DNA from: Sipunculus nudus
Lineage: Eukaryota; Annelida; Sipuncula; Golfingiida; Sipunculidae
Direction: 5' to 3'
Length of the DNA: 64,000 nt
Assembly: GCA_026874595.1 (NCBI GenBank)
Contig: CM049313.1
Span: forward strand, 65,476,159-65,540,158
The notes beneath the pieces are model-generated. The model ran no database searches. It had not been told where the DNA came from and was given only the letters and a program-made list of their open reading frames with translations. Positions 16,311 through 53,900 of the stretch are shown here, piece after piece. Within the stretch, counting starts at the first letter, position 1. The number at the start of each line of letters is the position of its first letter. Made by a program: the position numbers and the translations under genes.

Positions 16311-19300
16311 GTGAGTTGCTGTTTGATTCAACTTTTTTCAAAACATCATGACTTTTATATAGAAAGATATATACTGTGGTTGGCGTCATATTCATGGGTT
16401 TTAATTTTGTGATTTTCACATTTTAGCTCAGCTGACTATAAGTCATCTGAACTATAGTCGTAGTCCATTGTCTGTCGTCCCTCCATCCGGATGTCCATCC
16501 GTAAGACTGGCACGTTTCGACCAGGCTTGGGTCAAGTACATGTACTTGTACTTGGTACTTGTACTCAAGTACAAAATTTTCAGTACTTGGCCCGTACTTG
16601 TACTTGGAACTTTTTACCAAGTAAAGTACTTGTACTGTACTTGTACTTGCTAAAAATGTACTTGAAAAATCAAGTACATTCCAAGTACTAGTCAAGTACA
16701 TGTATTTTTTTAAAATATTTTGAATACAGAGCATATGGATTGATGGATGTGAGACAAGATTTACATGTCACAATAATAGCCTACACTATTAAACATCAAA
16801 CATGCCTCTGTTTATCCATGGTTTACTAATCAAAGGTCAGATTGTGCCAGGTAACTTATTTGGCTGTGACCTACTCTGTCCAGTACTCTTATGTAATTAG
16901 CACCAGTGGTCACCAGCAATTTGGCAGCTGGCCGATGCTTGCCTCCACAGTAGGCACATCCTGGGCAATTACTGGACAAGAACTGATTCTGTTCAGCATT
17001 ATTTGCTGATATGCTTCATGATCAAGGGACTCACAGGAAGTAATAGAAAGTAATATGTATTACTCTATTACTTTGCCTTCTGTTTCTATTACTATTACTA
17101 TTACAGCTCAAATTTTTGAGTCTATTACTATTACTATTACATGGGAAAAGCTGTAATAGTCTATCCTCAGACCTGATTATATGAACAGCTTGTGGAAACA
17201 CTACCCACTTAATAGTTCTGCTGAGTAAGTTTGTCCCAGGTTACATCTGCTCATGCACCAGGCTAATAAGCTGTGGTAACTGAGAAGATCAGGTTGGTAT
17301 TAGTGGTGGGAGTCGGTTCCTTTTTTATAATCAATCATCAGTTTAAGCAAACCGATCAATGATGGATTAGTAATCGGTTCAGGCAAATATAAAGAAATAT
17401 GCAATTATCTGTGAAATTGTACTTTCTTAACCCAGCCCGCATGTCTTAGTAATTCTACCTAAAAAAAAAGAAGTTTTGCCTTTTTTATATTTTCCTGTGA
17501 TCAGTAAGATATGCTTTTCAAAGTTTCATTTAAATTATTTATAATTAACAAGAATTAAAACACTATCCAGGACATCTACTTGCTGCATAGACCTAGAGAA
17601 TTTATGGAGCATTTTAACGCCATACCACCCATACTGTGCAATGTACATCTTGTTACAAAACTCCCCGCTAATTCTCCAGCTCCCTGCCAGCTCACAGAGG
17701 TTTATTAAGTCCTCTGTTCTCGCATCTACCGTGTTATACTCAGTTACATAGGAAGTTAATATGGAAAAAGACTAATTATTTGAAGCGCAGAATGTTGTAA
17801 AAAATGGAAGAATAATTTTAGCCTATGAGATAATAGGCATTCTGGGAAAAAAGTCATGATAATGATGTAATCGATAGTTGCCTTTGTTAATTGAGCGCTT
17901 GAAAGTGGCAGGAAACTGACGGACTTTCGATAAAACTTGATTGGCCCACCTCTAGTTGGTAATGAGTAAATCTGGAATTGAGTTGTCACAGCTGAACTAT
18001 ACACAACCCTCAGGTGGACTGTTTAGCTGATCAGCTGCGAGTTTAACACACCTGACAGATTAGTACAGAGACTCTTAAGCCACTATATAATAAGTGACAG
18101 AATTGGCAGATTCAGAATAGTCATTCAGAATAGGCATCAAAGCACCATTTCTTGTGTACTGATGTGCGACTGTGTAATTGTGTATATAAATACTGAAAGG
18201 CCATCAAGACTGTAACCCTGGATTACCTAGAATATCAACAACAAAAAAATTTCAGCAATTGGAGCATCAACCCATTTTTTGTGTACCAGTACTGATATCT
18301 GACTGTGTAACTGTGTATAATATAGGGAACTGTTTTATCAATAAATATTCAGAAAAATTGCTTTTTTAATGGAAAGTACTTGTACTTGTACTCAAGTACA
18401 GACCCCTGTACTTGTACTTGTACTCAGGTACATTGAAAAATTGTGTACTCGTACTTGTACTTGAAAAATTCTGAAGTACTTGTACTTGTACTCAAGTACT
18501 GACCCCCTGTACTTGACCCAAGCCTGGTTTCTACACCATTGGACCTACAAATCTGAAATACGGCATACAGTTAGATGCCCCCAAAATCTCCTACCATGCT
18601 GAAAATTGGGTCAATAGGACTTAGTTCCTTCGAGATATTAAGGAAAAACCTCAATTTTTTATTAGGAATCTATTTTCACACTTCAGGACCGCCTTTTATC
18701 AAAACCACTCATCTGGTTTTCTTTATATTTACCATAAATATTCCTCTATATAGTTCCTATGGACATGCCAGAAATTAAGCCAGTATTATTTAATTTAAAA
18801 AAAGTTATTGGCCCAAACATAATGGACTTTGTAAAAAAATCAGGAAAGATATTTGGTCACCGAAAGACCTAAGTGTTAAAGGTAGGGACTTTTTTCCAGT
18901 AATACAACTTTAATAAATCAAAATTTAATCGTATACCAAAAATTAGATCAAAATCTGTAAATTTTTTTTTAAATATTGGCAAAAATATAAAATTGGTACC
19001 TTAAATTTTGCCCAAGTTTGACCATGGCACGTTTTTTTCCTGTAACTGCTGTTGATTTTATTTTCAAAACATGTTTTTGTTAGCATTTCAACTGTTAACA
19101 CCAAAAATTTTAAACCAGTTGATCAAAAACTGTAGATTTTTTTCAAGTTTTCAAGCACCATGTCACATATTGTTTACATCAAGCTAGTGTTATGCAGTTT
19201 GCTAGAGCTCAGCTCCCCAGCTTCAGCTTTAAGTTCCTTAAATTTGGCATACAGTTAGATGTCCCCAAAATCCCCTACCATGCCAAGAATTTGATCACTA

Positions 19301-22300
19301 GGACTTAATTCCTTCAAGATATTAATTAAAATCTTCATTTTTAGCTCAGCTGACTTTCAGTCATGCTGGGCTATAGTGATGGGTCTTTGTCCGTCGTCCT
19401 TCCGTCTGTCCGTCCGGCCGGCCATCTGGCCGGCTGTCCGTTAGCAGGGCACAAATCGTAACCATAGGGGCTAGGGCCATGAACCCTATGCAGTCTTAGA
19501 GGTTCTAAAAAGATCTCCTTGCAAACCTGAAATTAGGTCACTGCGACCTATATTCTCAAAGTTATGGGTTGTGTTTGCACCCCCCAGAAAAAATTCTTTT
19601 AGCCAAAATTTTCATCCCAAACCTTCCATCTTTCACATACAGCTCACCTACCAACAGGGGAAGAACCATAATTATTTTGAGGTCACAAGGTCAAAGTCAA
19701 GGTCACAGAACCAACTTCTTTGAAAAGCCTGTGGATGCATTTTAAGCCAAACCTTTCATCCCAATTCTTTGATCTTTCACATAAAGCTCACCTACTAAGT
19801 GGGAGAAGAATCCTATAGATGTTGAGGTCACAAGGTCAAAGGTCAGGGTCACAAGATCCACTTCTTTGAAAAGGTTGTGGACACATTTCAAGCTAGACCT
19901 TTCATTCCAAACCTTCCAGCACTGATATCGCTTCTCTGCCAACAGGGGAAAAGACCTGTTGATTTTGAGGTCAAAGGTCAAGTTCACAGCACCCTCTTCT
20001 TGCGTGGAGTCATTTTCAGGCAATCTTTTCAATCTATACTTTCCATCTGTCATATATATGGCTTACCTACCAATAGGGGAAGAAGCCTATTGATGTTGAG
20101 TTCAAAAGGTCAAAGGTCAATGTCACAATATTGTTCTAAATGCTTATGAACATATTTCAAGTGAAACTGTTCAACCCAAACCTTCAGTCTTTCACATATG
20201 CCACATCTATGCATCACTCAATGTGATTCAAACTTCATATTTATGGGTCTTTTTGCATGAAGGAATAACTGATTGATTTTGAGGTCAGCTGGTCAGGAGG
20301 TTAAAGGTTGCAGGTCAAAGTTATTCACTCATTGGTTGCCAAGTAATTACACCCGGCCAGATGTAATTGATTAGTAGTTACCCATCATTTAGAAAGAATC
20401 CAGTTGATATGTGGGCAAAAGGCCAAGGTCATAGGTCAGGTCAACTTATTTTGTAGACCATCTCTATTTTTCTTGTATATATTAGCTTGCACTCCAGCTG
20501 GTACATCTCACTGTGTGGCTGTAATTGTGAGTGACACTGGTGACATAAAACTCCCTTTTGTATCAGGCTATTAAGTGATAAGGCTGAGTGATAAGTACCT
20601 CGTTACTGCATAACAAAACACTGTTGTTGGAATACTTCAGCCAGGATTTAACACTATGAGAGTATAGTATTAAGGTTTAGCTACTGATTTATTAGATGAT
20701 GGGAACATTTTGCAGTTTATTTTATGGAATCATAGCAATAAACGTAGTTTCCTAGATATCTGAATATTTTTATATAAATCTCCACATATAAAAGCAAGTG
20801 TTTGTTCTCATAATATGTGGATGTGTACTTGATTTAGGATGGCTTTATTTTATTACAAGACTCTTAGTCATGCTTTCTGCATTTCTTTTCTTTCAGGTTT
20901 TGCAGTTTACCAACCCTGCTGACCCCATTGAAAAGCAGAGTGATAATAAAAAATATAGGACCTACACTTTTACATTTGCATATCTATAAATCTGATATGA
21001 GCGCCTGAACATGCCTTTTGAATTGTTTTGGACATTCATTACTGTAACATCATTTGGAGAATTTGCCCCAAGTTTGGTCTCTTATTGGAGGATGTGTGAT
21101 ATCAAATGTCAGACTTGTCAGAAATCCATTTTGTCTGCCAGTTAGCCACCTTAGAAATCCTTTTTTCAGTGCAGTTTCAGTAATTTTCATTAAATTTTTG
21201 GTCCGATTTAGAGAATGGTTGTTATCTGATTTCAGACCTGTCAGAAGTCCAAAATGGCCACCAGGCAACCATCTTTAAATTCCTTTTGATCATATTATCT
21301 CAAGAACTGTTAAAGTGAAGGCAGTCAGATGTATATTAATGTAATCTTGCAAAGGATTGGGTCAAATATTTCTTAATAAATATTATCATCATATATGAAA
21401 GTGCAGTACAGTTGGCTTGTATTGAATAAAAATTCATACAGAAGCACCTGTTTCTCAATAATTCTTGCATGGATTTCCTTGATTTTTTGCTATATATTTT
21501 GATCTTATATTTGCCCTTTGTGGTGTTCCTTTTGAGACTGACAGGTATCAAGTAAGCTATGGGAATAGTTCTGGATACCTTAACAATCATACATTTTCCT
21601 CAGACCATCAATTCACTGTTTTAACCAGACATAGGTGATATATATTTCTGTTGTCGTAGAAAATTTCAACAAATTAGCAAATTGGTTCTTCAAAATTTGA
21701 CTGGAAGTTGTGAATCTCAGCCCATGATGTCGCAGGTCATGTTTGGCAGCTGAGCGTCATGACCCATGGGTCACTTGTTCCATTAAAAACCCATTGTTAC
21801 ATTTTAAGACTGCCTAATATCAAAACCACTGATAAGATTTTGATCATATATAATATACATATTTTTCTATTGTTACGAAGACAAATATTTGAGGGGAAAA
21901 TCCTGGGTCAATCCCGGTTTCGAACCCAGGTCGGTGGCGCACAAGTCCGGCGAACCAACCGCTTCCCTAGCAATGCAAGCTTCACTAGCAAGACAGTTCG
22001 GTCCGCTTTTTATGTGCACCCTGTAACACATCCCCTCTTAAGAGCGTTCTGCCATCAGAACAAGACTAATTTTCCCCAGGATTCACACTTTGGTGAGCTT
22101 AATCCCTGGGCCACAAAGTTTTATCATCATCCCGGACGAGCCCTCATTTTGTTACGAAGACAAATATTTGAGGGGAAAATCCTGGGGCGATCCCGGTTTC
22201 GAACCCAGGTTGATGTAGCACAAGTCCGCCAAACCAACCGCTTTGCTAGCAAAGCAAGCTTCACTAGCAAGACAGTTCGGTCCGCTTTTTATGTTCACCC

Positions 22301-25300
22301 CGTAACACATCCCCTCTTTAGAGCGTTCTGCTATCAGAACAAGACTAATTTTCCCAAGGAGTCACACTTTGGTGAGCTTATTCCCTGGCCCCAAAGTTTT
22401 ATCGTCACGTCGGACAAGCCCCCATTTTGTTAAGAAGGCAAATTGTTGGGTGGAAAATCCTGAACTGATCTGGAAGTCAAGGGGAAAATCCTGGGTTGAT
22501 CCCGGTTTCGAACCCAGGTTGGTGGAGCACAAGTCCGGCGAACCAACCGCTTCGCTAACAAAGCAAGCTTCACTAGCAAGACAGTTAGGTCCGCTTTTAT
22601 GTGCACCCCGTATCACACCCCCTCTTAAGAGCGTTTTGCTATCAGAACAAGACTAATTTTCCCAAGGAGTCACTCTTTTGTGAGCTTATTCCCTGGACCA
22701 CAAAGTTTTATCGTCAAGTTGGACAAGCCCCCATTTTGTTTCGGAGACAAATAAATGAGGGGAAAATTCTGGGCCGATCTGGGAGTCAAACCCAGATCGG
22801 TGGTGCACACGTGCTGCAAATAACCGCTTTACTAGCAAAGCAAGCTTCACTAGCTAGACAGTTCGGTCTGCTTTTTATGTGCACACCGGAACACTATACA
22901 TTCCCTATGCTCATGCCAGAAATGATGTCAGTATTGTGTAATTGTTTGAAGTTATGGGCCCAAACATAATGCACTTTTAAAAAAGCGGGTGCCCTATAGT
23001 AATCGACCTGTCCGTCTGTCCGTCTGTCTGTCCGTCCGTCGACAAATTCTTTTCCAGATGATAACTCCAGTTAGGATTGACGGATTGGGTTCAAACCTGA
23101 AATATATATTAATCATCAATAATGAAGATCCCTATCGATTTTTGGGTCCAGAGGTCAAAGGAAAAAAAAGTTATTCACAGTTTGATGTTAAATTTTAGGT
23201 CCCTCTTTCAGCAGAATAGAAATCATAATTGTAACCATAATTGTTTGTTCCACCTTAACAGTAGGACAGGTCCTCATGTCAACAGCAACGAAGCATGATA
23301 ATTGGTCATAGTCAGCCATTTTTCTGAAAGTTATGCGGTAAAAACCATTACTGAACACCTAGTAAGGTTGCACTCTCTTAGCAAATATGCATGCAAAAGG
23401 ACACACATTGTTAACAACAATAACTCGTAAAAAGTTTTTCATATAAGGTCCCCAGACTCACAGCAGTGATGGACCTTTTGATGAATACATCATGTTTGAA
23501 GATGGGTGACCTTGATGGATTTTCAAGGTAACAGAGGTGATAATGCTAAAATGATGTTAACCAAATAGCTCGCAAACAATTTGACTAACACTCACTGAAC
23601 TTGCACCAGTAATGTTTGTTATGAAGGGCTAGGTCAAATTCGAAGATGGATGACCTTGACAGAGGCGATAATTCTCAAATGATGTTAATGCAATAACCCG
23701 CAAAGAATTTGATGAACAATCAAATTCGTTTCTGCATAATAACTCCCCTAACATATGATGGATAGGATTCAAACATGAGATGTATCACCCATGGCCTAAG
23801 GGAGAAGCTTATTGATATTTTGGTGAGAAAGAAAAAAAAAGTAATACACAGTTTGTTGTTCAGTTGCTGGTGTCTCCTTCAGCAGGCCAGAAATGGATGA
23901 ATCTTTTTTGAGTCACTCCTGTACAGCGGCATTAGATTTTCACAGCATATTTTGTACAGACAATTTGAAGATTCCCCAGAAAAGGATACACTGGCCCAAC
24001 GCACCACAGTGGCTCTCATTTAGACCATGTTTGGACAAATCTATCTCCACTTCCAACATCTCAAGGAATTTGGACCTATTATAGTGACCATCAACAAATT
24101 AACATTGATATTCATATATAGCCATTCTACACATCGCAGCGCATCTGTAGACCCAAGCCCAAGAACAGCTGAATCTCAGTTCAAGAGAATGACCATTTTA
24201 TCACTACTTACCAGCAGCTGACTCTCTCTAATACTTCAAGGTTTATGTACAGACTCAAGCCTCGCATATAATAAGGCCAATTAAACATACAAATACTGGA
24301 AAAATATTTGACACAGCCTAGCCAAGTTTTAAACCAAGAATAATTGCCACAGTTAATACAGAAATACAGAAACTAAAAATGCATGCAGTTCTTTTATATC
24401 ATTATTTTGATAGCTTTGAACATTTTCACTTTACCATATCTTTTCTTCCAGTTTATACATGTCAGCTGTTCTTTACAGGTTCTTTAATTTTCAAATATCA
24501 CTCTTTCAGCCCATGCTACCGAAGTACACCAAATTCACAGTACTTCAATTTATAATGACTGCATCTTTTGCGGGGCCCTTACTGACCTGTCAGTTTTCTA
24601 GTTTAATCAAGATTCAATTGAATACCATAAATTAGTTCTGAATTTTTGAAATTTTTTAAGTTATTAGTATTAATATAAAATTAGTACCTTAAGTTTTGCC
24701 CAACTTTGACCATGGCACGTTTGTTTCCTGAGAGCACTGTTGATATAATTTTCATATCATGCACACATAAGGATTTCATCTTTGAAGTTTAGAAAGCTGA
24801 AAGAAATTAGCCAAATATTGTAGCTTTTATTAATGTTTTTATGAGAACATGTCAGACCCAGGCTCTACCCAGCTCCTCATCAGTCACCTGTATGTTGACA
24901 TTGTTGACCTTTCATCAAATTATGCATGCTTGAGGTGAGGCATACACTGTGGCAGCCAGGCAGCTAATGCCCAGCCACAGTTGATCAAGGTGTCCAACCA
25001 AACTCATCTGGTAGTTGTTTTGAAAAACAACATAACAATAAACTATAAATTAATTAATTTTTATTGGTTTTTAATAACAAATTAAAGAAAATAGAAAAGG
25101 AATTTGTTAGTTGATGAGTAACAGAAAATTAACTTGCAGTTACTGATGATGTAAGAATCTTGTATGGATGGATAGAATGTCAGTGGCAATGTTATTCCAA
25201 ATAACACCATGCAGTCACCCATGGTATTTTTCAGTTCAATTTTAATAATTAAAAAATAAATCATATTATTCATTACTAATCATTAGGGATCATGTGATGG

Positions 25301-28300
25301 AAATTAATGATAGACAAAGATGCAGTTGATAATATTAATCTAGATTCCCACTGTGTCTAGTGTGTAGATTGATGTGAAAATAGTCCAAAGTGAATATATT
25401 ACATTTATTTTTTTAATATAAATAAAAGCCATAGAACCAGGTACTTATGATCATTATTTAAATTTGTTAATTTTGTATATTCTGGATTCTCTACATCATT
25501 GTTTGGCTAAAACTGAATAAATACTAGACATGGTGCGAATGCTTTGCAAATGTATTTGAATACGAATATGAATATGTACTGCATTAACAATTTTATTGCA
25601 TAAGAATGGGAATTCAGGTTAAATTGAAAGTATTTGAATACCAGTGCAGATACTTTCAAAATATATTCATGAATGCATTCAGGAATATATTCTATAATAT
25701 TATTTTAATAATCATTTCAGTTATATTTTACTTAAAAAATCATATGATTTTCTTATTATTTTTTTAAATAAAAATTATATTGGCACAATATTTGTTATTA
25801 AATTTTAATAAATAGTTAAACTCTTTATTATATGTGCTGCTTATAAGTTATATGGCCAAGTCAAAATCTATGTGACAATAGCACTCCAATTGTTAGCGAA
25901 CCTGTGAGCTTATGCGATGGTGTGGCGTCGTCCGTCGTCCGGTGTCCGTCGTCTGTACGTTAACCCATACTAACTTGAAAATGGCAAGAGTTAGCATCAC
26001 GAAATTTTATGCAAAAAATTAGTCATCTGAAAAACTCCATCAGATTTTGCTTATTTTTTGGCTAACTGCATTTTCTTAGATTTTATAGAGAAAAAGCTAA
26101 AAAAGCTTTAAAAATCTTCTTCTCTGAAACTGTTCAGCCAGATTGTCCAATATTTCACAGAAATGATCCCTGGAACAATCTCTCTCAAGTTTGTTCAAAT
26201 GGTTTAAGTTCGGTGATTTTTGGCTGAGTTACAGCTAGTTGAACTTAGTCATCTGTCCAAAAAAGCATACTAAAATTACAAACTTAGAAACAGCTGGAGC
26301 TATCATCACCAAATTTTATGCCAATGTTGGTCACATGAGTCATATCTGAAATTGAGGTATTGGTGGCGCCACCTGCATCGGCCTTTTTTGTATCATACTG
26401 ACAGCTACAAATAACTTCTTCTCTGAAATGATATGGCCAAATTGTTTAATATCTCACAGAAATGATCCTAGGGTAGTGCTTTCTGAAGTTTGTTCAAATG
26501 GTCTCAGTTCAGTGACTTTTGGCTAAGTTATGGGAAGCTGAATTTAGTCATATACCATAACAGCCTATTTTAGCTAAGTGGCTACAAAAATCTTCTTCTC
26601 AAAAACCACTTAAAATTCTTAAATCTCACACATTAATTATCCTTAGATGTTGATAATTCTAGTTTGTTCAAATGGTTTTGGTTCAGTGATTTTTGGCTGA
26701 GTTATGGGTTGCTTAACTTAGCCATTTTGCTGTATTTTCCCATATGAGTTATAAACCTGCAAAACATTTTTAGACTGATGCCACTGAGGCCAATTTGTTT
26801 AATATCTTACAAGAATAGTCCCCTGAATAATTCTTATAATGATTATCTTTTATGGTGCCAAAGAATGAATTATGGCTGAATTATAACGATTGAATTAAGT
26901 CATTTTACCATATATGGTAGCTGTGTAAAGCAGATTCATCTAGCCTAGCACCAGTTTATCAGCATCCCTTACATCATGCCTCTAGACCTTCAGATTTCAG
27001 GTTATCTATGGTTAATATTGACAAGAATGTTTTTTAAAAGCTTTTAAAAAATGTAGATTTATGATTTTAGATATACTTCATACCAGGCAATGTCAACAAT
27101 CACAGGTATACAGCTCTCTGTGGGTATATAAAGACGGCTATACATAGATTATAAATAATTGGTGTCCATACTCAACTTAATTCAAGATTTTGCCATCAGT
27201 GAGAGATGTATCTGTATTATAATTTTGCATTCAATATGCATCTGTAGTAATTTTAGTGAGCCTGTGAGCTAATTTGATGTTGTTGCGGTGTCCATAGTCC
27301 ATCTTCTGTAAGTTAACCCATACTATTCGAAAACGATGGGGGTTGCAACATGAAATGTAATGTAAAAAATTAGCCATCTGAAAAACTCTGCATTTTCTTA
27401 GATTTTAATGAGAAAAAAATTTAAAAACCTTTAAAAATCTTCTCTGAAGAAACGGTCAAGCCAAATTGTTCAGTATTTCACAGAAATAATCTTTTATATC
27501 ATATCTTACAAGTTTGTTTGAATGGTTCAAATATGATATAAAAGATTAAAAAGTATTTTAGCCAAAGTCTTTCAGTATGTGTAAACAGATTTACTAACAG
27601 GCCAAGATTGTGTCTGTAATTTAAATAGGTTGAGATACTCTCATGGGCACCATGTGATAACCTCATAGGTAGCATGTGATCAACTCATGGGTATCATGTG
27701 ATCACCTCATGTGTGTCATGCCCCTCAGGGCTGCATGTGGAGCCAATCTTAGAGCTTATGCAATGGTGTGGCTACTATTTCAGATTAGGCAACAGGTCAA
27801 GAGTTCACTCAGTGCAGCCAGGTATAGGTCAGGAGTTCACTCTGTGCAGTAGCTGCATTCTATTTATAGCAGTGGTAGACTGCCCACTGCATCAGATTCA
27901 TCACAAAGTTCAGCCTGGATCTATTTATAGCTTTGGCAGACTGCCAACTGTGTCAGATTATGCAACAGGTCAAGAGTTCACTCAGTGCAGCCAGGTACAG
28001 GTCAAAAGTTTACTCAGTCTAGCCAGGTGCAGGTCATGAGTTCACTCAGTGCAGTAGCCTGAGCAAGCAATTTGTCACAGTTCACTCGGGGCAACTGCCT
28101 TTCTCACCTAAGCCGGGTCAGCCCCATGCATCAGACTCAAGGTAAGTTTTATGTATTGGCCTAATATAATGACCTTGTCTATGTGTCTTTGATGGCTTTC
28201 TCGCTCACAAGACAGGTGTCGCCACCTACAATGACTTTTGCACAGTTTGTGTCCCTGCGTTTTCTCAGGAGGGGTTTAATTGATATATCAGTCTGAAATT

Positions 28301-29829
28301 GGGCATATGTATATATCTCTGATAGCTTTGTTGTATACAAGACTGGTGGTGCCAGCTACAATCATTTTTGTGTTGTCCGCACCCATGCCAGAATTTCAGC
28401 AGTGATCTTTGTGTAATTGTTTCATATTCAAAATAGTTAGTACTTGCATTGTTCATATACATAATGGTCCAGCATTGAAGCATTATACCTGGTGTATTTC
28501 CCAATGCACAGGTTCGCATTAGGCCTGTAGGCCTTGTTAATAAAATAAATGAAATCAATCCTTTTCCCTGTCTCCAAAGATACTATCAAAATCATACATA
28601 AGCTAAACACCAACAACACATAATAAAGCTTATATTTATTACCACACAAAACCCGCATGTGCCTCATTCCCAAATCATATTTTTTATCATATATAACAGC
28701 TGAGCGCCGTGACCCATGGGTCCCTTGTTTAATGTTTCATGAGGGTTTCATTTTCTTGATCTCAATACAAAAAAACCTATACAGAGAATACAACCATTAT
28801 AATGTGAATTAATTAGGGCCTTGCTTGAAAAGCGGTGCCCTATAATGATTACCGTGTCAGGCCAACCTTCCATCCATCCGACTTCAGTACTTCCGTCCTT
28901 CTGTCTGTGACACTTTCTTTTGCACGTGATAACTCAACAACAACCTACTGCAGCTTTCCCTAATTCACAGGGATGATTGGTACTTATGAGGGCTCCAGAC
29001 CTATTGAATTACAGACCTGTTGGAATTCCAATATGGCCGCCACAGCCTGATCGCTGATTTTCTTTCATGGCAATAACTTGACAACACCCCACTGCAACTT
29101 TCCCTTATTCACAGGGATGATTGGTACCTATGAGGGCTCCAGACCTATTGAATTACAGACCTGTTGGAAGTCTAATATGGCTGCCACAGCCCAATTGCTG
29201 ATTTTCTTTCGCGAGCAATAACTTGACAACACCCTCCTGCAGCTTTCCCAAATTCACAGGGATGATTGGTACCTATAAAGGCTCCAGACCTATTGAATTA
29301 CAGACTTGTCGGACTTCAAATATGGCTAACAGACAACTTTTGGTGATTTTTTATTGCACACATTATTTCAGACATATCTTCTTTAAAATCATTTGATCCA
29401 GTAGGATTTTTTCCCTCATGCATTTGGATAAAAACCTTAAAAAGCAATGTTTTTGTAAAAAAAATAATTTTATTTTTTTGGTCAAGAGTGGGCTTTCGTC
29501 TGGGTTGACTTTTGTCCTACACCCAAATTGATATAAACTACCTTGCATGCCTATGTCAATTTGAGTAGTCCCAAACATTTTCAAATTAAATGATGCCTTT
29601 ACAGGGGCACTTGTTTTAAAATTTTAGGCTAAGATCAGTTTGATAGGAAATCCAATTTTACTTTATATAGGGTTCTTTTATGGTCAAAATCTTACTTTTT
29701 ACATTACACGGTAAAAACCTGTAAATTAATGTTGAAACTGTTATTAATATTAATAACTGTAGATAACTACAGTTCATTCTTATAAGTTTTATCCCCAACA
29801 AGTTAGAAGAATCATAGCATATCCTATAA

Positions 29830-32900: not shown

Positions 32901-35900
32901 TCACCCATGCAAGAGCATTATTCTGGATTCTTGTCCAGTCTGATCTGTCATATCTTGCAAAACTCTTTTCAAAGATTTCCAGCCTGAGACTCCTCAGATT
33001 ATCTTCATGTCATATTTCCATGCCCTTATCAAACCATGACTGATTCATATCTTGCAAGCATTTAAAAAGGAAACATCTCCACGGCAACAAACTTTGTACA
33101 GACAAAGGTAAAGTTGGGATGTGGCAACTTGCTTGTCAGAATTACAGGTCTACCCCTAGCATTTTAAACAAAGCATTGTACTGGGGCTTTGTCTTTTGCA
33201 GACTTAATTCTCTTGGTTTCAAATTGGGAATAATGAATAAATAACATGCTAGTAGAATTTAAACACAAATGATGTTTACATGCATGTTTATGAAATGAAG
33301 ACATATCATGGTTCACACAGTAATTTTTTCAGCACACAACATTTACTTCTCATTTCTTATTTACTTTTAAGGTCTTTTACATTTTCCATTTCGTTTCCTG
33401 TAAGATCTGATGTAAGCTCAAATTTTGATGGTGTTTTTTATAGACAGAAACATGAAACAATACTTTGAATTCATTCATTATTCCCAGTTTGATGACCAGT
33501 TTCATTCCTTTACAAATGATTGCTTCACATACAATAAACTGGTATATTTCTAATAGATAAAACTATGGTAAGCCCTTCCCAAACATTCCGAAATAAAGTG
33601 AAATTCCCTCAGGATTTTTTGGAAAAAAATATGCAAAATGATGGCACTTCAATAGTCATTTTGCCTGACATTTTAAGACCAAAAACAGGTTTTTATTTAG
33701 CTCAGCTGACTATAAGTCATTCGAGCTATAGTCGTGGTCCATTGTCTGTTGTCTGTCCATCCGTCTGTTTGTTAGTCTATCCGTCCGCCAGACTGGCACG
33801 TTTTGAAACTGTTAGACCTATGAATCTAATATCTGGCATACTGTTAGATGTCCCCAAAATCTCCTACCATACCGATAATTGGGTCCATATGACTTTGTTC
33901 CTTAGAGATATTTAGGAAAAACCTCAAATTTCCATTTAAAAACCTATTATCACCATTCAGGACTGTCTAATATCAAAACCACTTAACTGTTTTTCTTAAC
34001 ATTTACCAGAAGTAATCTCCTATATATTTCCTATATATATGCCAGATATTAAGTCTGTTAAGTATAATTTGTTTCAGTTGTTGGCCCAAAAAAAATGGAA
34101 TTTTTAAAAAATCAGGAAAATATTTACTCACTTAACATGAAAACTTTTAAAACTAGAGACTATTTTCCCAAGTATATAACTTTGTTGAATTAAAATTCAG
34201 TTGTTTACCCAAAATGAGATCTGAATTGTGTAAATTTTTTAAGTTATTAGCATAAAAATTAGTACCTTAAATTTTGCCAAACTTTGACCATGACACTTTC
34301 CTATTAGTACTATTGATTTAATTTTCACAGCATGTAAACATAAGTATTTAATCTGAAATTGAAAATAAAAGCTTGAAAATCAGGCAAGTTATTGTTTTTT
34401 TTTCTTGAGGCTCTATTGTAGTAATTTACTTTGTCTAGATGCAGGGTCCCACTCCAGGTCCCTGGAAGTCAGCTATGCCAGGGTTTTTGATTTGTTACAG
34501 TCACTGGGGGAGATCCCCTGCTGTGACAGGTGTACAGCTATTCTCATATCACTTCCCAAAGCGCCCCCCCCTCTGCAAATCAACCCACCAAGTGTTATGG
34601 AGTAATTGTTATTGTTTTCACTGTATCTCCTTAATGGTAATGCTGTTTCCACTACAATATACAAAAACTTTCCTTGAAAAAGTTATTCAAGGTGTAATCA
34701 AGAAGATGCCAGTTGTGTTAATGTAGTATTTTCAAAGAAATCAATTTTCTTTTAATGATTTTAACGAATATAATTAAACCCATCATGCTTAAATTTATAA
34801 AATATGAAGCAAATTATGGATAAATAAAGGCACAATTTAAAATTGTGAAATCTGAATCAAGTATTATTTTTATATATTTATTGTTTTGCAAATTTATTTT
34901 GTGGTAAAAAATAAATTAACATTTGTATGCATGATGTGGTGTTGTCTGACAGGATTGCGATTAATGATTACCCAGTTTAGAATTATGATCAACCTTTATA
35001 TTCAGATATATATGTTATATCAGAAATGTATAGAAGTATAAAATTATAATAAAAAAATTGATGTGATAAAAAAATGAGGATCTAACATTTGTTCATTATT
35101 TTCCTGCCTCAGCAGAATTTGAGAAGAATTAGGCTTTGTTTGCCCTGTATGTGTATGCAGAAGTATTGTTAATCCTACCATCTCCCCCCCCCCCCATATT
35201 TATTGCAAATGTGTAAAATTTATTTTAGTAAAATTAATAGGATTAAAAAAAAATTAAGATCTTATTGAAACATATTCCTGCCTTAGGAGAATGGAACATA
35301 AAGTGATCAGGTCTGTCCATCATCTCTCCGTTATCATTTAATATATATTAATTATGAAATTTTTCCTATAAGCACTGTTGAAATAACTTTCATTTGCTGT
35401 ATGTATTTGGAATTAAGCCTTTTAACTTTAAGTCTGAAATTTGAAAGCAAATTACAGTAGAACACCTGTATTACGGTCACCATCGGGACTGGATGAAAGT
35501 GGCCTTAATACAGGAGTGGCCTTAATACCGGACTTGACCAGGATAGGGGAGTTAAAATGTTACACGAAACCAAGTTCAAATCTTTATTACAATCAACAAA
35601 ATAAACGTATATACACGGTATTAGTATAATTACTATTATCAATAAAAAAATAAAATATTTAGAATCACGTCAACCCTATTTATAACAATCACCAACAATA
35701 TATACAAATACAGTGTTTGTAATTAAATTATATCCATAATATTTGTACAAATGTTGAGAATCTTTTTGTATCCATAAAGCATACTAATAGCACAGAAGTA
35801 TCAGCAGAAATATGTGAACATTCACAGAATACACTCTTTACTTCTGGTTAAAGAAAGCAGTTATGGAAGACTGTTTATTACACACTGTCGAGGTCACAAT

Positions 35901-38900
35901 TTCATCTTGATAGGCAAATTCCAAATTCTTGGTAGCCATAATGGTGAAAGTGATAAGGACAGAGAATGCGTTACATGTCATACAGGTAACATTGTTTATT
36001 TTCATTCTTAATTATTCATGTAGGAGTAAATTGTGCGATGTTTTCTGCACTATTTTCGTTTGATTTACGTGTTCACAAGGACATTAAAGAAAGTTTAAAG
36101 ATCAACAGTTTGCCTAATACTTTTCTGATAACATAATCATCGGGACCTGATGATTTTGACAAACACCCTGATTAAGATCCAGCTCGCGAGACTGATTCCC
36201 AAACATACACGCAGGTAGGAACACATACCTTACTATTGTGCATACTTATGAGGCTGAATGGGGTAGTACGACGCTGGCTACGTGTCAAACAACTCGGTCA
36301 CAGTCGTGTGGTTACCTGCCCCTGACCATAATTGAGGCGATTCCCGGCCTGCGGGACAGAGAGACCTCGCTGTTATACGGAATAGAGGAGTGACCATAAT
36401 TGACAACAATATGATTAGGAAATATAACGGTCGAAAATTCGGGATGAAAATCTGACCGTTATAGACGTATTGGCCGTTATTGAGGCGTGGTCGTTAGCAG
36501 GCGTTCTACTGTATATACTCAGTTGGGTATTATTGCAGTGTTAAACTTAAAAAAAAGATATAATAAATAAATTAAGAAATAATTGAAACTTCATATATTA
36601 TCAGCTGTGTTAGTCTACTAGTCTGTCTGTCCTTTTTTAAGTATATAGTAATTGTGAATGAACTTTTTTATCCTGTAAACATTGTTGGATTAAGTGAAAA
36701 TCCTATGTATATACACTATAATAATACAGATATGTTGTAACTCACACCATTCCACCCCCCCCCCCCCCCCCCCCACCACCACCAAATCCTTTCATCTGTG
36801 GACTGGGGACATAAGTTATATTTCAACTGTATACATTTCATAATATTAAAAAAATCCATATATTTAATAATATATATTATCTAAAAATAGATTCAATTGA
36901 ACAAATTTGTAAACTACTGAAATGTCAACAGTTAATCAAAAACCCAACTAATGATCATGGTAATAGTACAGATCATTTGTTCACAAACTGCTCACATGCT
37001 TCAGTTTAGACATTAGGAAACACATGGTCAGGTCACAAAATATTATTTTCCACAGTTTCTTGCACATCAATATAAACCAATCATATAAAACAAACAATGG
37101 CCTATATTACCTCTACCTCTTACACTTGATCTCCATTTGATATTATTTTAGATTTTACCTTCAAGGTCAACTTCAGCTGAGCACAGTGACCCATGGGTCC
37201 CTTGTTTAATTAAAAGTACTTGTACTTGTACTCAAGTACAGGCCCCTGTTCTTGTACTTGTACTCAAGTACATGGAAAAATTGTGTACTTGTACTTGTAC
37301 TTGTCAAATTCTGAAGAATTGTACTTGTACTCAAGTACTGACCCCCTGAACTTGACACGAGGCTGTTTTCTAGCTGTGGCCACAGTGGAGTTGCATAACA
37401 GTTTATTATTATTATTATTTATATTATTTTTATAGCGCTAAATCAAGAAAAAAATCCTGCGCTAGCATAAAAGCGACTGTAAAATGTTCATAACTATGAA
37501 AAGTAAGAATGATAAACATTTGTGCATCTAAGAGTTCAAATATAGTATGATTTAAATAAATGTGTTTTCAACCGTGACTTAAAACTGACTAAAGAAACGT
37601 CATGTTTTACAGTGTTAGTTAAACTGTTCCAGAGAGCCAGGGCTACTCTCCTAAAACAGTTCTCCCTGAATGTAACAGTTGTGGCCATCAGTGTTGCCAA
37701 CAAGCCCTTTTTTTCGCAGAGTGCAGAGACCTTGATGGAATATATTGAACAAGAAGTTCATGCACATATGATGGGGCTAGACAGTTCAAAGCTTTGTAGC
37801 TACCAGGTATATAGAAGAATCTTAAACCAAATTCAGGATTCTACTGGTAGCCAGTGCAGTTGTTTCAGTATTGGCATAATATGGCGGATTTTGACGTTTG
37901 AGTAATAATCGTGGTGGCAATATTTTAAATACATTCTATTCTGTTGATGAGAGTACCTGGCACTCAGAGGAAGTTATGGTGCCACCATCAGTGATAAGAT
38001 ATATCATAATTGAAAACATTAATAAAGTGGAGTTTTATCACATTGCTTTTAAAAGCTTTAAATTATCACATGATTGTTTAAAGTATGAAATATAATAAGA
38101 AAGCTTTAAGTGTTTAAGAAAGGTAAAACAGTATTTGATGTCTCAAAATATAAATTATTAATTTAATATTACACAAAGTTTTCCACTGTCCATGCACATT
38201 TTGAAGAATGTTTCCTGTTTGCCCTGAAAAATATTTGTACCTCTAAGGTAGAGCCCCATTTGATCTATGCCATAAAATGAATTTTTGAATTTAAAGAATT
38301 ATAATGTGATCTGGACCATGTTTGCATTGTTTCTTGGTCAATAAAGTAAAAATACCTTTCCTCTGGTTTATAATAAGTAGATAAAATCTTAACTTGATAT
38401 ATCGCGATAATTTTCACTCTACTTTTGCTGAAGGGGTATTGCGACATCATTTGAAGGGAAGCACGGTAGTATACGATACTGGCTGAAGGCAGAGATGGAC
38501 AAACCATGGTCATTCAACCATAAGACAAAGAAAGCCTTCACTGTGATCAGTCCAATCGATATCAACAAACCAGAATATCAGGTAACTAGAAAAGCACTCA
38601 GAGAGTGCAGACCTTTGCCAAGGCAGCTCATTACCCCCATATGGCATTGTCAGAATGCAGCAGTTTTCCTTAAAAAATACTTGATCCAGATAGTCATCTG
38701 GATCACCCCCTCAATTAAATCAGTTGTTACATGTACCGAACTATTCTGAAAATTTCAACAAAATCTGTTAAGAACTATTTAACAGACAAACGCATGCAGA
38801 CAAACCAATGCCGGCAAAAACATTATCATTGCCCCTTGGCAGAGAGGTGTCAGCCGTGACAGTTTACCAACATAACTATTCCATCGACTGATCCTGGATA

Positions 38901-47900: not shown

Positions 47901-50900
47901 TAAGAGACACTATAAACAATTTTAACATGAACCACGTTCTAGTTTTTCTCATCCATTGGTAGGTTTTAGCACATCTCCGCTCAGATATAGTTGAATTTAA
48001 ATCAATTTAAAAGGAAAAACTTATTTTGGTAGAGTGATTCTGATTTGTTGATTAGTTATATTTATGCTTTCAAATTTAAGAAGTTTCGTATGAATATATT
48101 TCTAAGTTAAGATTCTCGTTGTCTGCCATTTCCTGTTTTAGCGATCATTTTCATGAATAAGGGGGTAGGGGTACAAAAGGCATTGCTACATATCTGTCTT
48201 TCACCTCAGTAACTAATGCATGTGACTAAAAGAAAGAGGAATAATCTCTAATTAATAAAATCTTAATGCTTTAAAAGGGTCTTTGTGTAAAAGCATACAG
48301 AAACAGTGTTCACTTATGTGAGATTGCTCGAAAAAAATTTGGTTATATTTTTAGCTCAGCTGACTATAAGTCATCTGAGCTATAGTCGTGGTCCATTGTC
48401 CGTCGTCTGTCCGTCTGTCCGTCCGTCCGTCCGTAGATGTGGCACGTTTTGAAACCGTAAGACTTAGGAATCCAAAATATAGCATAATGTTAGATGTCCC
48501 CAAGATCTCCTACCAAGCCGAAAACTGGGTCTTTGCGACTTCGTTCCTTTGAGAAATTAAGGAAAAACCTCAAATTTTTATTAAAAACCTATTTTCACTC
48601 TTCAGGACTGCCTAATATCAAAACCACTCATCTGTTTTTCCTCATATTTACCATAAATATTCTTCTATATAGTTCCTATGTACATGCCAGAAATTAAGTC
48701 TGTTAAGTATAAATTCTTTAAGTTATGGGCCTGAACATAATAGACTTTGTAAAAAATCAGGAAAAATATTTACTCACTTAACATGAAAAATTTTGAAACT
48801 AGAGTCTATTTTCCCAAGTATATAACTATGTTTAATTAAGATTTAATTGTTTACCCAAAATTAGATCTGAATTTTGTAAATTTTTTAAGTTATTAGCATA
48901 AAAATAAAATCAGTACCTTAAATTTAGCCCAACTTTGACCATGGCACGTTTTTCTCCTGTATGTACCATTGATTTAATTTTCACAGCATGTAACAGTAAA
49001 TATTTAATTTGTTTAAATCTGAAATTTGAAAATAAAAGCTTGAAAATTAAGCTAGTTATTGATTTTTTTTCTTGAGGCTCTACTGTAGTCATTTGCTTTT
49101 ATAACAGATTACAGATGCAGGGTCCAACTCCAGGCCACTGGAAGTCGGGCTATGCCAAGGTTTCTGATTTGTTACAGTCACTGGGGGAGACCCCCTGCTG
49201 TGACAGGTGTACAGTTATTCTAATATCACCATCCCAATCCCCCCCCCCCCCCCCCCCCCCGGCAAACCCAACCCACTAAGTGTAATGCAGTAATTGTTAT
49301 TGTTTTCACTGTATTTCCTTAATTGTAACACTGTTTCCACTCCAATATACAAAAACTTTCCTTAAAAAAGTAATTCAAGTGTAATCCAGAAGATGCCATG
49401 TTGTGTTAATGTAGCATTTTTAAAGAAATTAATTTTCTTTTAAATGATTTTAACAGATATAATTGAACCCATCAGTATGCTTAAATTTATAAAATAAGAA
49501 GCACAATATGGATAAATAAAGACACAATTGAAAATTGTGAAATCTAAATCAAGTATTATTTTTAGATATTTATTGTTTTGCAGATTTAAAAGATATATTT
49601 TTGTGGTAAAAAATAAATAAACATTTGTATGCATGGTGTGGTGTTATATGACAAGATTGAGATTTATGATGATGCAATTGAGAATTATGAATCAACTTTT
49701 ATATTCGGATGTATCTGTTTTATTGGAAATGTATAGAAATATAAACTTAAATTAAAAAAAATTGGTGATGAAAAAATTAGGATTTAATACAAACATTTGT
49801 TCATTATTTTCCTGCCACAGCAGAATTTGAGATCAATCTTTGTTTGCCCTGTTTTATGTTGTTAATTAGTTATATTTCATCTGTATACATTTCATAAAAA
49901 AAAACATAAATTAATAATATATATTATACAAAAAAAATATTCAATTAAACAAATTTGTAAACTACTGAAATGTCAACAGTTAATCAAAAAGCCAACTGAT
50001 GATCATGGTAATAGTACAGATCATTTGTTCACAAACTGCTCACATGCTTCAGTTTCAACATTAGGAAACACATGGTTTCTTGCTCATCATTACAAACCAA
50101 TCATATAAACCAACCATGGCCGTTATTACCTCTTCCTCTTACACTTGATCTCCATTTGATATTATTTTAGATTTTTACCTTCAAGGTCAACTTCAGCTGA
50201 GCACAGTGACCCATAGGTCCCTTGTTATTCTTGTAAGCCATAATTGTTCACATATATGAATGAAGGTTTGTTTTTTAAATCAGCTTTGTGTATCTTAGTA
50301 TGTTTGTGCATATAAATACCAACAGTTTAAGAAATAACTTGCTGTTTTAGTTCATTAGGGGACTGAGTGAGCCAAATTGGGCTTATCAAACAAAAATGTA
50401 TACAGCTCGTACAAAAAATGCTCCTTGCAATGTTATGCAAGAGTGTCCTGATTGCCAACATTGGTTTTCTGATTCCCAAGATGTCTACCTCTATGAAAAA
50501 TAAAGTGAAAATTTTATATCAGCCCGGGCAATGTTTTTAGCTCAGCTGACTATAAGTCATCTGAGCTATAGTCGTGGTCCATTGTCCGTCGTCCGTCCGT
50601 CTGTCCGTCCGTCCGTCCGTAGATGTGGCACGTTTTGAAACCGTAAGACCTAGGAATCCAAAATTCAGCATAATGTTAGATGTCCCCAAGATCTCCTACC
50701 AAGCCGAAAACTGGGTCTTTGCGACTTCATTCCTTTGAGAAATTAAGGAAAAACCTCAATTTTTTATTAAAAACCTATTTTCACACTTTAGGACTGCCTA
50801 ATATCAAAACCACTCATCTGTTTTTCCTCATATTTCCTATAAATAATCCTCTATATAATTCCTATGTACATGCCAGAAATTAGGTCTTTATTATTTAATT

Positions 50901-53900
50901 TTAAAAAGTTATGGGCCCAAACATAATGCATTTTGTAAATAATCAGGAAAGAAATTTTATCACTTAACACAAAACTTGTTAAAGCTAAGCACTTTTTTTC
51001 CAGTAGTATTACTTTTATTAATCAAAATTAAATTGTATACCCAAAATTAGATCAAAATCTTTTAAATTTTTAAAAATATTAGCAAAAATAAAACATTGGT
51101 ACCTTAAATTTTGCCCAACTTTGACCATGGCACGTTTTTTTGCTGTAACTGCTGTGGATTTAATTTTCACAGCATGTTTTTGTTAGCATTTCAACTGTTA
51201 ACACCAAAAATTTGAAACCAGTTGATCAAAAACTGTAGATTTTATTCAAGTTTTCAAGCACCATGTCACATATTGCTAGTGTTATGCAGTTTGCTAGAGC
51301 TCAGCTCCCGAGCTTCAGCTATAAGTTCCTTAAATTTGGCATACAGTTAGATTTCTCCAAAATACCCTACCATGCCAAGAATTTGGTCACTAGGACTTAA
51401 TTCCTTTGAGATATCAATGAAAAACTTCATTTTTCCATTAAAAACCCAATGTTACACTTTAAGACTGCCTCATATCAAAACCACTGATCTGACTTTGATC
51501 ATATATAATATACAGAAATGATGTCAGTATTGTGTATTTTTTTTAAGTTATGGGCCCAAACATAATGCACTTTGTAAAAAATCAAGAAATATATTTACTC
51601 CCTTAACAAGGGCATTGCTGAAGCTAGAGATCTTTTTTGTCAGGGATGTAATATTATTTAATCAAGATTCAATTGAATACCCAAAATTAGTTCTGAATTT
51701 TTCAAATTTTATAAGCTATTAGTATAAATATAAAATTAGTACTTTAAATTTTGCCCAACTGTGACCATGGCACGTTTGTTTCCCGTGAGCACTGTTGATA
51801 TAATTTTCATATCATGCACACATAAGGATTTCAGCTTTTTAGTTTAGAAAGCTGAAAGAAATTTGCCAAATATTGTAGCTTTTATTAATGTTTTTTATGA
51901 GACCCTGTCAGACTTTGGCTCTCTCCAGCCCCTCTTGAGTCACCTGTATGTTGACCTTGTTGACCTTTCATCAAATTATGCACGCTTGAGGGGAGAATCC
52001 AGGCAGCTTATGGCCAGCCACAGTTGATCCAGGTGTTCAACCCAACTCATCTAGTAGTTTTAACCAACAACATAACAATAAACAATAAATTAATAAATTT
52101 TTATTGGTTTTTAATAACAAATTAAAGAAAAATAGAAAAGGAATTTGTTAGTTTATAATAACAGGAAATTAACTTGCAGTTACTGATGATATAAGAATCT
52201 TGTATCGATGGGTAGAATGTCACATATTCCAAATAACACCATGCAGTCACCTATGGCATTTTTCAGTTCATTTTTAATGATAAAGAAGTAAATCATATTA
52301 TTCATTACTAATCATTAAGGATTATATGAAGGAAATTAATGATAGACAAAGATGCAGTTGATAATATTTATCTAGATTCCTACTGTGTCTAGTGTGTACA
52401 TTGATGTGAAATTAGTCCAAAATGAATTTTTTACAGTTATTTTTTAATATAAATAAAAGCCATAAAACCAGGTACTTATGATCATTATTTAAATGTGTGA
52501 ATTTTGTATATTCTGGATTCTCAACATCATTGTTTGGTGAAAACTGAATAAATACCAGACATGGTGCGAATTCTTTGTAATTGTATTTAAATAGGAATAT
52601 GATTATGTACTCCATTATAAAATTTCTTGCATAAAGAATGGGAATTCAGGTATTTTTATATAAAAGTATATGAATACTCGTGCAAATACTTTCAAAATGT
52701 ATTCATGAATGCATTCATGAATATATTCTTTAATATTATTTTAATAATCATATCAGTTATATTTCATTTTAAAAAATCATTTGATTCTCTTATTATTTTT
52801 AATAAAAATTATATTTGGGACAATATTTGTAATTTTTTCAATAAATAGTTAAACTCTTATATTATATGTTCTGCTTATAAGTTATATGGCCAAGTCAAAA
52901 TCTGTGTGACAGTAGTACTCCATTTGTTAATAAAATAAATGAAATCAATCCTCTTCCCTGTCTCCAAAGGTACTATCAAAATCATACATAAGCTAAACAA
53001 CAACAACTCATAATACAGCTTATATTTATTACCACACAAAACCAGCATGTGCCTCATTTCTAAATAATATTTTTTTATCATATATAACAGCTGAGCGCCG
53101 TGACCCATAGGTCCCTTGTTTAAAAATTACTTGCTTTGGCCCCATGACTACAAAGTGGCCGGGGCATATAGTTTTTCCCATGTCTGTCATTCTGTCCTCC
53201 CATCATTAAAAAATCAAACAGTTGTACAGACTTTATTAGGAGCTGCCTGCAGATATTGGCCTTATTTGGTGTGTGGGCAAATAAAGACCAGTTACAGATC
53301 AAGTTAGCTTTTGTCTCGATTGACCTACTTCTGACCGTTTGATGCTCCTGAACATAGAAAATTTCATGAAAAAATAGAAATTTTCCAGACAAATACACAT
53401 GTACGGACTTTTTTTGCAATGCCTGCAGATATTGGGCTAATATTTGGTGTGTGGTAGCAAAATGACCACTAACAGATCGAGTTTACGTTTTGTCCTGTAT
53501 GACGGCCAAAGAACAGAAAATTTCATGCAAATAAAAATTTTCATGATAAATTCACATGTACAGGCTTTTTTTCGCAGTGTTTGCAGATATTGACCTGATT
53601 TATTGTACCTCGCCAGATCATGATGTATTAGAGTTTGTGTTTTGTCATGGTAGACTAACCGTATGACAGCTCCTTAAAAATTTTTATAAAAATTGAAATT
53701 TTCATGAAAAATGCACATGTTTAGACTTTCTTCCCAATGACTGCGGATATTGGCCTGATTTTTTGTGTGTGGGTGCATAATGACCACTTACAGATAGAGT
53801 TTGCATTTTGTCCTGGTTCACCTACTTTTGACCGTATGACAGGTCCTGATTATAGAAAATTTTACAAACTTTAACAAATATTTCTAATTTGCTCCAGGCG

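Follow-up and report, generated by a model that had tools for sequence, protein, structure and literature searches.

Two insertions in the DNA of the annelid Sipunculus nudus are real and of a known kind, and the pattern of strands on which their relatives lie along a chromosome is the part worth following. The window, by which we mean the whole stretch of 64,000 nucleotides that was analysed, holds four copies of a repeat designated family H (A, B, C0 and C), and copy A is interrupted by one element of family I and one of family II. We are confident that I, II and H are HINEs, the non-autonomous Helentrons, moved by a Helentron-encoded Rep/helicase, and that I and II landed in an older H element. 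The features concerned are (subTIR, subterminal inverted repeat):

18540..28728, + strand: copy A, 5'-truncated family H element hosting I and II (start approximate)
19342..21778, + strand: non-autonomous family I element of 2437 bp nested inside copy A, with subTIR, palindrome and CTTGT; the empty site is in C
25894..28537, + strand: non-autonomous family II element of 2644 bp nested inside copy A, with subTIR, palindrome and CTTGT; the empty site is in C
33698..37205, + strand: copy B, family H element
48352..50225, + strand: copy C0, family H element whose palindrome has one altered base
50538..53119, + strand: copy C, family H element with neither I nor II inside it; its palindrome has one altered base
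51428..51447, + strand: empty site of insertion I, in copy C
52924..52941, + strand: empty site of insertion II, in copy C

Removal of 19342-21778 from copy A leaves CATTTTTCCATTAAAAACCC, and the same string is found in C from 51428; removal of 25894-28537 leaves TTGTTAATAAAATAAATG, which occurs in C from 52924. Both restorations had been claimed in a sequence-only reading of the window and are upheld here, as are the termini TAGC...CTTGT of both elements and the palindromes before their 3' ends, GACCCATGGGTC in I and AGGCCT-GT-AGGCCT in II. The description of the restored sites as identical to copy C holds for the junction strings, which are exact, but not for the wider flanks, where the A/C alignments around both insertions are at 86-95%, similar rather than identical. 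That neither insertion leaves a duplication, as was also claimed, is partly a matter of boundary choice. Without any change in the excised product, the boundary of insertion I can be shifted by 1 nt in each direction (TT at the two junctions), and that of insertion II by 4 nt to the left or 2 nt to the right (TTGTTA at the two junctions). Because TT and TTGTTA are common to the junctions, the exact boundary and a TT duplication are undecidable from these two cases; for family I, a duplication of more than 2 bp is excluded by insertion I, and a TT duplication is compatible with it. PMC4067079 describes this uncertainty over Ts for HINEs as well. A comparison of filled and empty sites across copies, which the same reading had proposed, added no further case, in that 17 joined family I flanks gave 0 spanning matches against the window and the fetched loci. 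At laxer settings, L009, L018 and L021 gave matches across the junction at ~59-73% identity, too diverged to count as empty sites, and the joined flanks of L028 gave no match across the junction.

The paralogous copies are more than plain host DNA, in that B, C0 and C begin and end at transposon termini. Each of the three spans TAGCTCAGCTGA to CAGCTGAGC...CTTGT, and they are complete transposons of one terminal group, family H. Copy A, which aligns to C from element position ~110 through the 3' end at 28728, with insertions, is a truncated member of the group. As A, B, C0 and C are themselves transposons, both insertions are nested. A plain segmental duplication was rejected for B, C0 and C because the copies start and stop at element termini. 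The first 72-82 bp of family I are common to B, C0 and C (76-85%), and its last 32 bp resemble C (88%) and B (84%), with no match to C0 at the cutoff used; its interior is not shared with B, C0 or C. All six elements, I, II and the four copies of H, have the + orientation in the window. A TACTTG-rich repeat, 90% alike at its two places, lies just upstream of A (18361-18533) and just downstream of B (37201-37372).

The terminal anatomy of the two inserted elements is resolved as follows:

19342..19373, + strand: family I 5' hairpin (DNA fold), subTIR GCTCAGCTG at 19344-19352
21747..21778, + strand: family I 3' end, subTIR CAGCTGAGC 21747-21755, palindrome GACCCATGGGTC 21761-21772, CTTGT 21774-21778
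25896-25906, + strand: family II 5' subTIR GCGAACCTGTG, within the element 25894..28537
28507..28537, + strand: family II 3' end, subTIR CACAGGTTCGC 28507-28517, palindrome AGGCCTGTAGGCCT 28521-28534, end CTTGT

In all five complete elements examined, perfect subTIRs of 9-11 bp lie near both ends; the first begins 2 nt in from the 5' end, its partner stops 20-23 nt short of the 3' end, and after this come the palindrome and CTTGT. The palindrome is perfect in I, II and B, and has one base altered in C0 and C. The 5' hairpin of family I folds at -9.8 kcal/mol (z -4.21; 0/200 shuffles fold as well), and strong 5' hairpins are seen in I (z -4.2), in H (copy C, z -5.5) and in the coding Helentron L033 described below (z -5.0); family II has none in the fold test (z 0.66). 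When 32 nt are folded, the 3' palindromes are no more stable than shuffled sequence (z -0.1 to -0.8). A structural scan for such ends gave 17 on both strands of the window, with a mean of 6.07 and a maximum of 13 among 100 shuffles. Since shuffles reach 13, the scan is kept as support only; taken alone it is weakly specific, and the full 3' signatures are specific. No stop-to-stop frame of at least 110 aa lies wholly inside family I; there is one of 119 aa inside family II and one of 239 aa running out of the 3' end of family I. A further family, IV, had been counted as probably related. Its end GGGGCACTTGT is present at 29604-29614, but both terminal scans gave no element end there and recovered no structure of subTIR plus palindrome. 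By eye, a T-run-flanked terminus ATGCCCCC...GGGGGCAT heads 180-bp tandem arrays near 30519 and 53137 of the window, and an end resembling it lies within a Rep-coding repeat near 468 of L058, the repeat being uninterrupted in L060.

In the 1.43-Gb genome that contains the window, there are 15,194 exact 3' signatures of I and H together and 4,145 of II, 2,498 exact family I 5' ends and 922 L033-family 3' ends, with 0 for the reversed-pattern control of each. Upstream of the AGC of family I, positions -1 to -5 are T in 29, 30, 28, 29 and 30 of 30 loci (L001-L030, which include the window copy), L025 being the one without T at -1, and position -6 is A in 19/30. Of 20 family I 3' ends sought, 17 were found (L020, L024 and L026 lie outside the fetched stretch), and in these CTTG is followed by T in 17/17 and by TT in 16/17, L028 having CTTGTA instead of CTTGTT; for family II the figures are 20/20 and 19/20. 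The ends of both families thus place insertion at TT in T-rich sequence, and the pattern of the target T-run is consistent with TTTT|T, as described for one family of Helitron2 (PMC3627910).

The body of family I has a feature of its own. On the element's + strand, the first ~1.64 kb contain 13-21 [AG]GGTCA half-sites of nuclear-receptor type in 30/30 loci and 2-5 DR1 per locus (30 loci, including the window copy), and the 1.49-kb flanks upstream contain 0-3 half-sites. The window copy has 22 half-sites on both strands (shuffle mean 2.67, maximum 10 among 200) and 4 DR1 (shuffle 0.005). No link between such half-sites and Helitrons was found in a literature search.

Coding Helentrons are present in the same genome. 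Helitron_like_N (PF14214) has 143 matches (150 scored of 195 first-look candidates), among them the pair L033 and L034, which are alike over ~25.5 kb and 97.8-99.7% identical in the compared pieces. L033 with its downstream piece L066 encodes DUF6570, OTU, Helitron_like_N, PIF1 and Exo_endo_phos, among which are the Rep, PIF1 helicase and endonuclease by which Helentrons are recognized. The Rep motif of L033, IEFQARGSPHAH, fits the S-P signature of Helentrons as given in PMC4067079, and Rep is encoded antisense to the element. The Helentron has TT|GCTTGCCGGAAAT... as its 5' end and ...ATTTCCGGCAAGC...TGACCTCTGGTCATCTTGT as its 3' end, the latter laid out as ATTTCCGGCAAGCGCG-TGACCTCTGGTCA-TCTTGT, and hence a palindrome plus CTTGT also terminates a coding Helentron in this genome. 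In L034 the 5' end adjoins another copy's 3' end. On chromosome C1, the 3' ends of the L033 family occur in clusters that each keep to one strand, spaced mostly at ~1.7-2.7 kb among the matches listed, e.g. 8 in 17 kb at 64761022-64777671 and 10 in 24 kb at 105182948-105207168; in 6 kb of one such cluster, the 3' ends are followed by (TTTG)n, and then by a 5' end in 2/4 cases. In L065 (2040-3599), the frame upstream of the DUF6570/OTU part of the Helentron contains tandem peptide repeats (Pfam STPRs, 2.4e-15).

The terminal layout of L033 is that of I, H and II, with a different subTIR sequence. An autonomous Rep/helicase element with the termini of I and II, which the sequence-only reading had suggested searching for, is therefore matched in layout and in the palindrome plus CTTGT but not in the subTIR, and an incomplete search found no Rep-coding element bounded by the ends of I, H or II. 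Among the matches listed on C1, all 91 exact 5' ends of family I are more than 20 kb from any Rep match on that chromosome, the nearest being at ~24 kb by eye. With this partner not found, the filing as HINEs rests on anatomy. The suggestion that one machinery moves both I and II fares less well, the subTIRs of I, II and L033 all being different and II having no 5' hairpin.

We have demonstrated the anatomy, two empty sites, a T-run target in many copies, thousands of copies in all and coding Helentrons with the same layout. The subTIRs, the 3' palindrome, insertion at T|T and the shared layout of a coding Helentron place the elements in the non-autonomous Helentron/Helitron2-like class, as had been proposed, and they are a clean but ordinary case of a known class of transposon. 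The HINE/DINE-1-like elements and Helentrons described in PMC4067079 are alike in having subTIRs, a 3' palindrome, a TT target in T-rich sequence, apparently no duplication apart from Ts of ambiguous placement, some copies with central repeats, and Helentron proteins in the genome, although the partner of I, H and II was not found in the incomplete search here, and the subTIRs are 9-11 bp and perfect compared to 12-15 bp in the mite families of that study. Cg_HINE of the Pacific oyster, likened by description, has the same subTIR, GTCC-type microsatellite after the 5' end and central repeats, and the same 3' palindrome and TT insertion, which in the oyster leaves no duplication (PMC7492417). 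Helitron2 elements share the asymmetric terminal inverted repeats, insertion after TTTT, the 5' hairpin (in I, H and L033, but not in family II) and, in some of them, an antisense Rep as in L033; L033 differs in carrying an endonuclease domain, the Helentron hallmark (PMC3627910, PMC5148889).

Two other classes may be weighed. Cut-and-paste, MITE-like DNA transposons that duplicate a TT target would be compatible with the junctions, and elements of this kind were formerly filed as MITEs (PMC4067079). The ends are asymmetric, however, in that the inverted repeat stands 2 nt in from the 5' end but 20-23 nt in from the 3' end. This layout recurs in a coding Helentron of the genome, and we consider the cut-and-paste reading very unlikely. 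Canonical Helitron1 elements, which have 5' TC and 3' CTRR and are inserted between A and T (PMC4067079), also have a palindrome near the 3' end and no long duplication, but the ends TAGC...CTTGT, the T|T target and the subTIRs leave this reading with next to no probability. For HINEs of the present kind, a Helentron-encoded Rep/helicase would nick at the T before AGC, peel off one strand and halt at the 3' palindrome plus CTTG. The peeled strand would then be joined into a T-run, roughly at TTTT|T, with no duplication or TT at most, and I and II would have been inserted in this way inside the older H element. Both the strand chemistry and the supply of the Rep protein by one of the genome's Helentrons are parts of this scheme that we infer.

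Neighbouring copies on C1 tend to face the same way over ~200 kb. The strand data cover C1 and four sets, all of Helentron type: 100 of the 15,194 H/I 3' ends (H and I mixed; first 5 Mb), 100 of the 4,145 family II 3' ends (first 20 Mb), 91 family I 5' ends on C1 among 100 listed of 2,498, and 65 L033-family 3' ends on C1 among 100 listed of 922. Among the matches listed, the first 41 places for H/I are all minus, as are the first 16 for family II. Same-strand pairs within family II, again among the matches listed, number 19/19 at <20 kb, 45/54 at 20-100 kb, 63/83 at 100-250 kb, 72/143 at 250-500 kb and 150/283 at 0.5-1 Mb, and each of the first three values is reached by 0/5,000 shuffles. Between H/I and II, the matches listed agree in 44/47, 119/135, 188/218, 229/331 and 395/584 pairs in the same five bins, values reached by 26, 52, 2, 2,082 and 4,180 of 5,000 shuffles and by 0, 2, 2, 9 and 24 of 30 rotations of the strand order; since 84/100 listed H/I places are minus, agreement starts from a high baseline.

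The agreement persists on thinning of the matches listed. With one family II copy per 50 kb, 43/56 adjacent pairs at <250 kb agree (shuffle mean 27.7; 0/10,000 reach this), with H/I thinned likewise 41/50 do (57/10,000 shuffles), and 23/27 thinned II copies agree with the nearest H/I at 20-250 kb (109/10,000). At one copy per 100 kb, the values among the matches listed are 31/43 for II (20/10,000) and 28/35 for H/I (409/10,000). Family I 5' ends at 20-250 kb agree with II in ~20/25 and with H/I in ~33/35 cases among the matches listed; thinned to one per 50 kb, they agree with their own neighbours in only 15/23, which 1,130/10,000 shuffles reach. The L033 family, among the matches listed, shows no agreement at 100-250 kb (0.53 of 17 with II, 0.51 of 55 with H/I, 0.55 of 20 with I) and a mixed result at 20-100 kb (0.74 of 19, 0.71 of 24 and 0.50 of 10, respectively), and its own pairs at <20 kb are on the same strand in 84/84. 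A repeat from 21870-22894 of the window was rejected as a non-Helentron strand control, having 17 exact places only.

The strand of insertion may simply follow whichever strand is richer in T-runs, reinforced by same-strand nesting of HINEs and with no link to replication, a reading to which we give about an even chance. Copy A holds I and II in the same orientation, H-like sequence is seen by eye in several of the 20 family II 3' flanks, and L033-family copies are arranged head to tail in (TTTG)n in one cluster, with the 84/84 same-strand pairs at <20 kb among the matches listed. Less readily accommodated are the continued agreement at 100-250 kb and across families and the 43/56 adjacent pairs of the thinned family II set (0/10,000 shuffles), all among the matches listed. 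Segmental or tandem duplication of chromosome blocks would multiply same-strand copies and raise agreement within a family, but by itself it favours none between families, such as the 23/27 of thinned II against H/I (109/10,000 shuffles) among the matches listed, and it is an unlikely source of the pattern.

One tentative possibility, which we regard as plausible though doubtful, is that Helentron insertion is coupled to replication, the peeled strand being joined into T-runs exposed on one template. The strand of a HINE would then record the direction of the germline replication fork over ~200-kb domains. Such a length is of the order of animal replicons. The result that the L033 family is without agreement at 100-250 kb hints against replication-directed insertion. 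In bacteria, the orientation of IS200/IS605 follows the direction of replication via the single-stranded lagging template (PMC5371812); the likeness holds only if replication causes the strand pattern, and with a different transposase in those elements no membership is claimed. A literature search of limited extent, which took in passages of PMC5371812, PMC4778049 and PMC13286980, found no published link between Helitron orientation and replication.

The source of single-stranded DNA is a question left open for Helitrons (PMC4778049). The strand coherence, if it survives controls, bears on this question and is testable from sequence in a HINE-rich genome. Coupling to replication, if true, would give eukaryotes a counterpart to the orientation rule of IS200/IS605, and HINEs would constitute a fossil map of the direction of replication.
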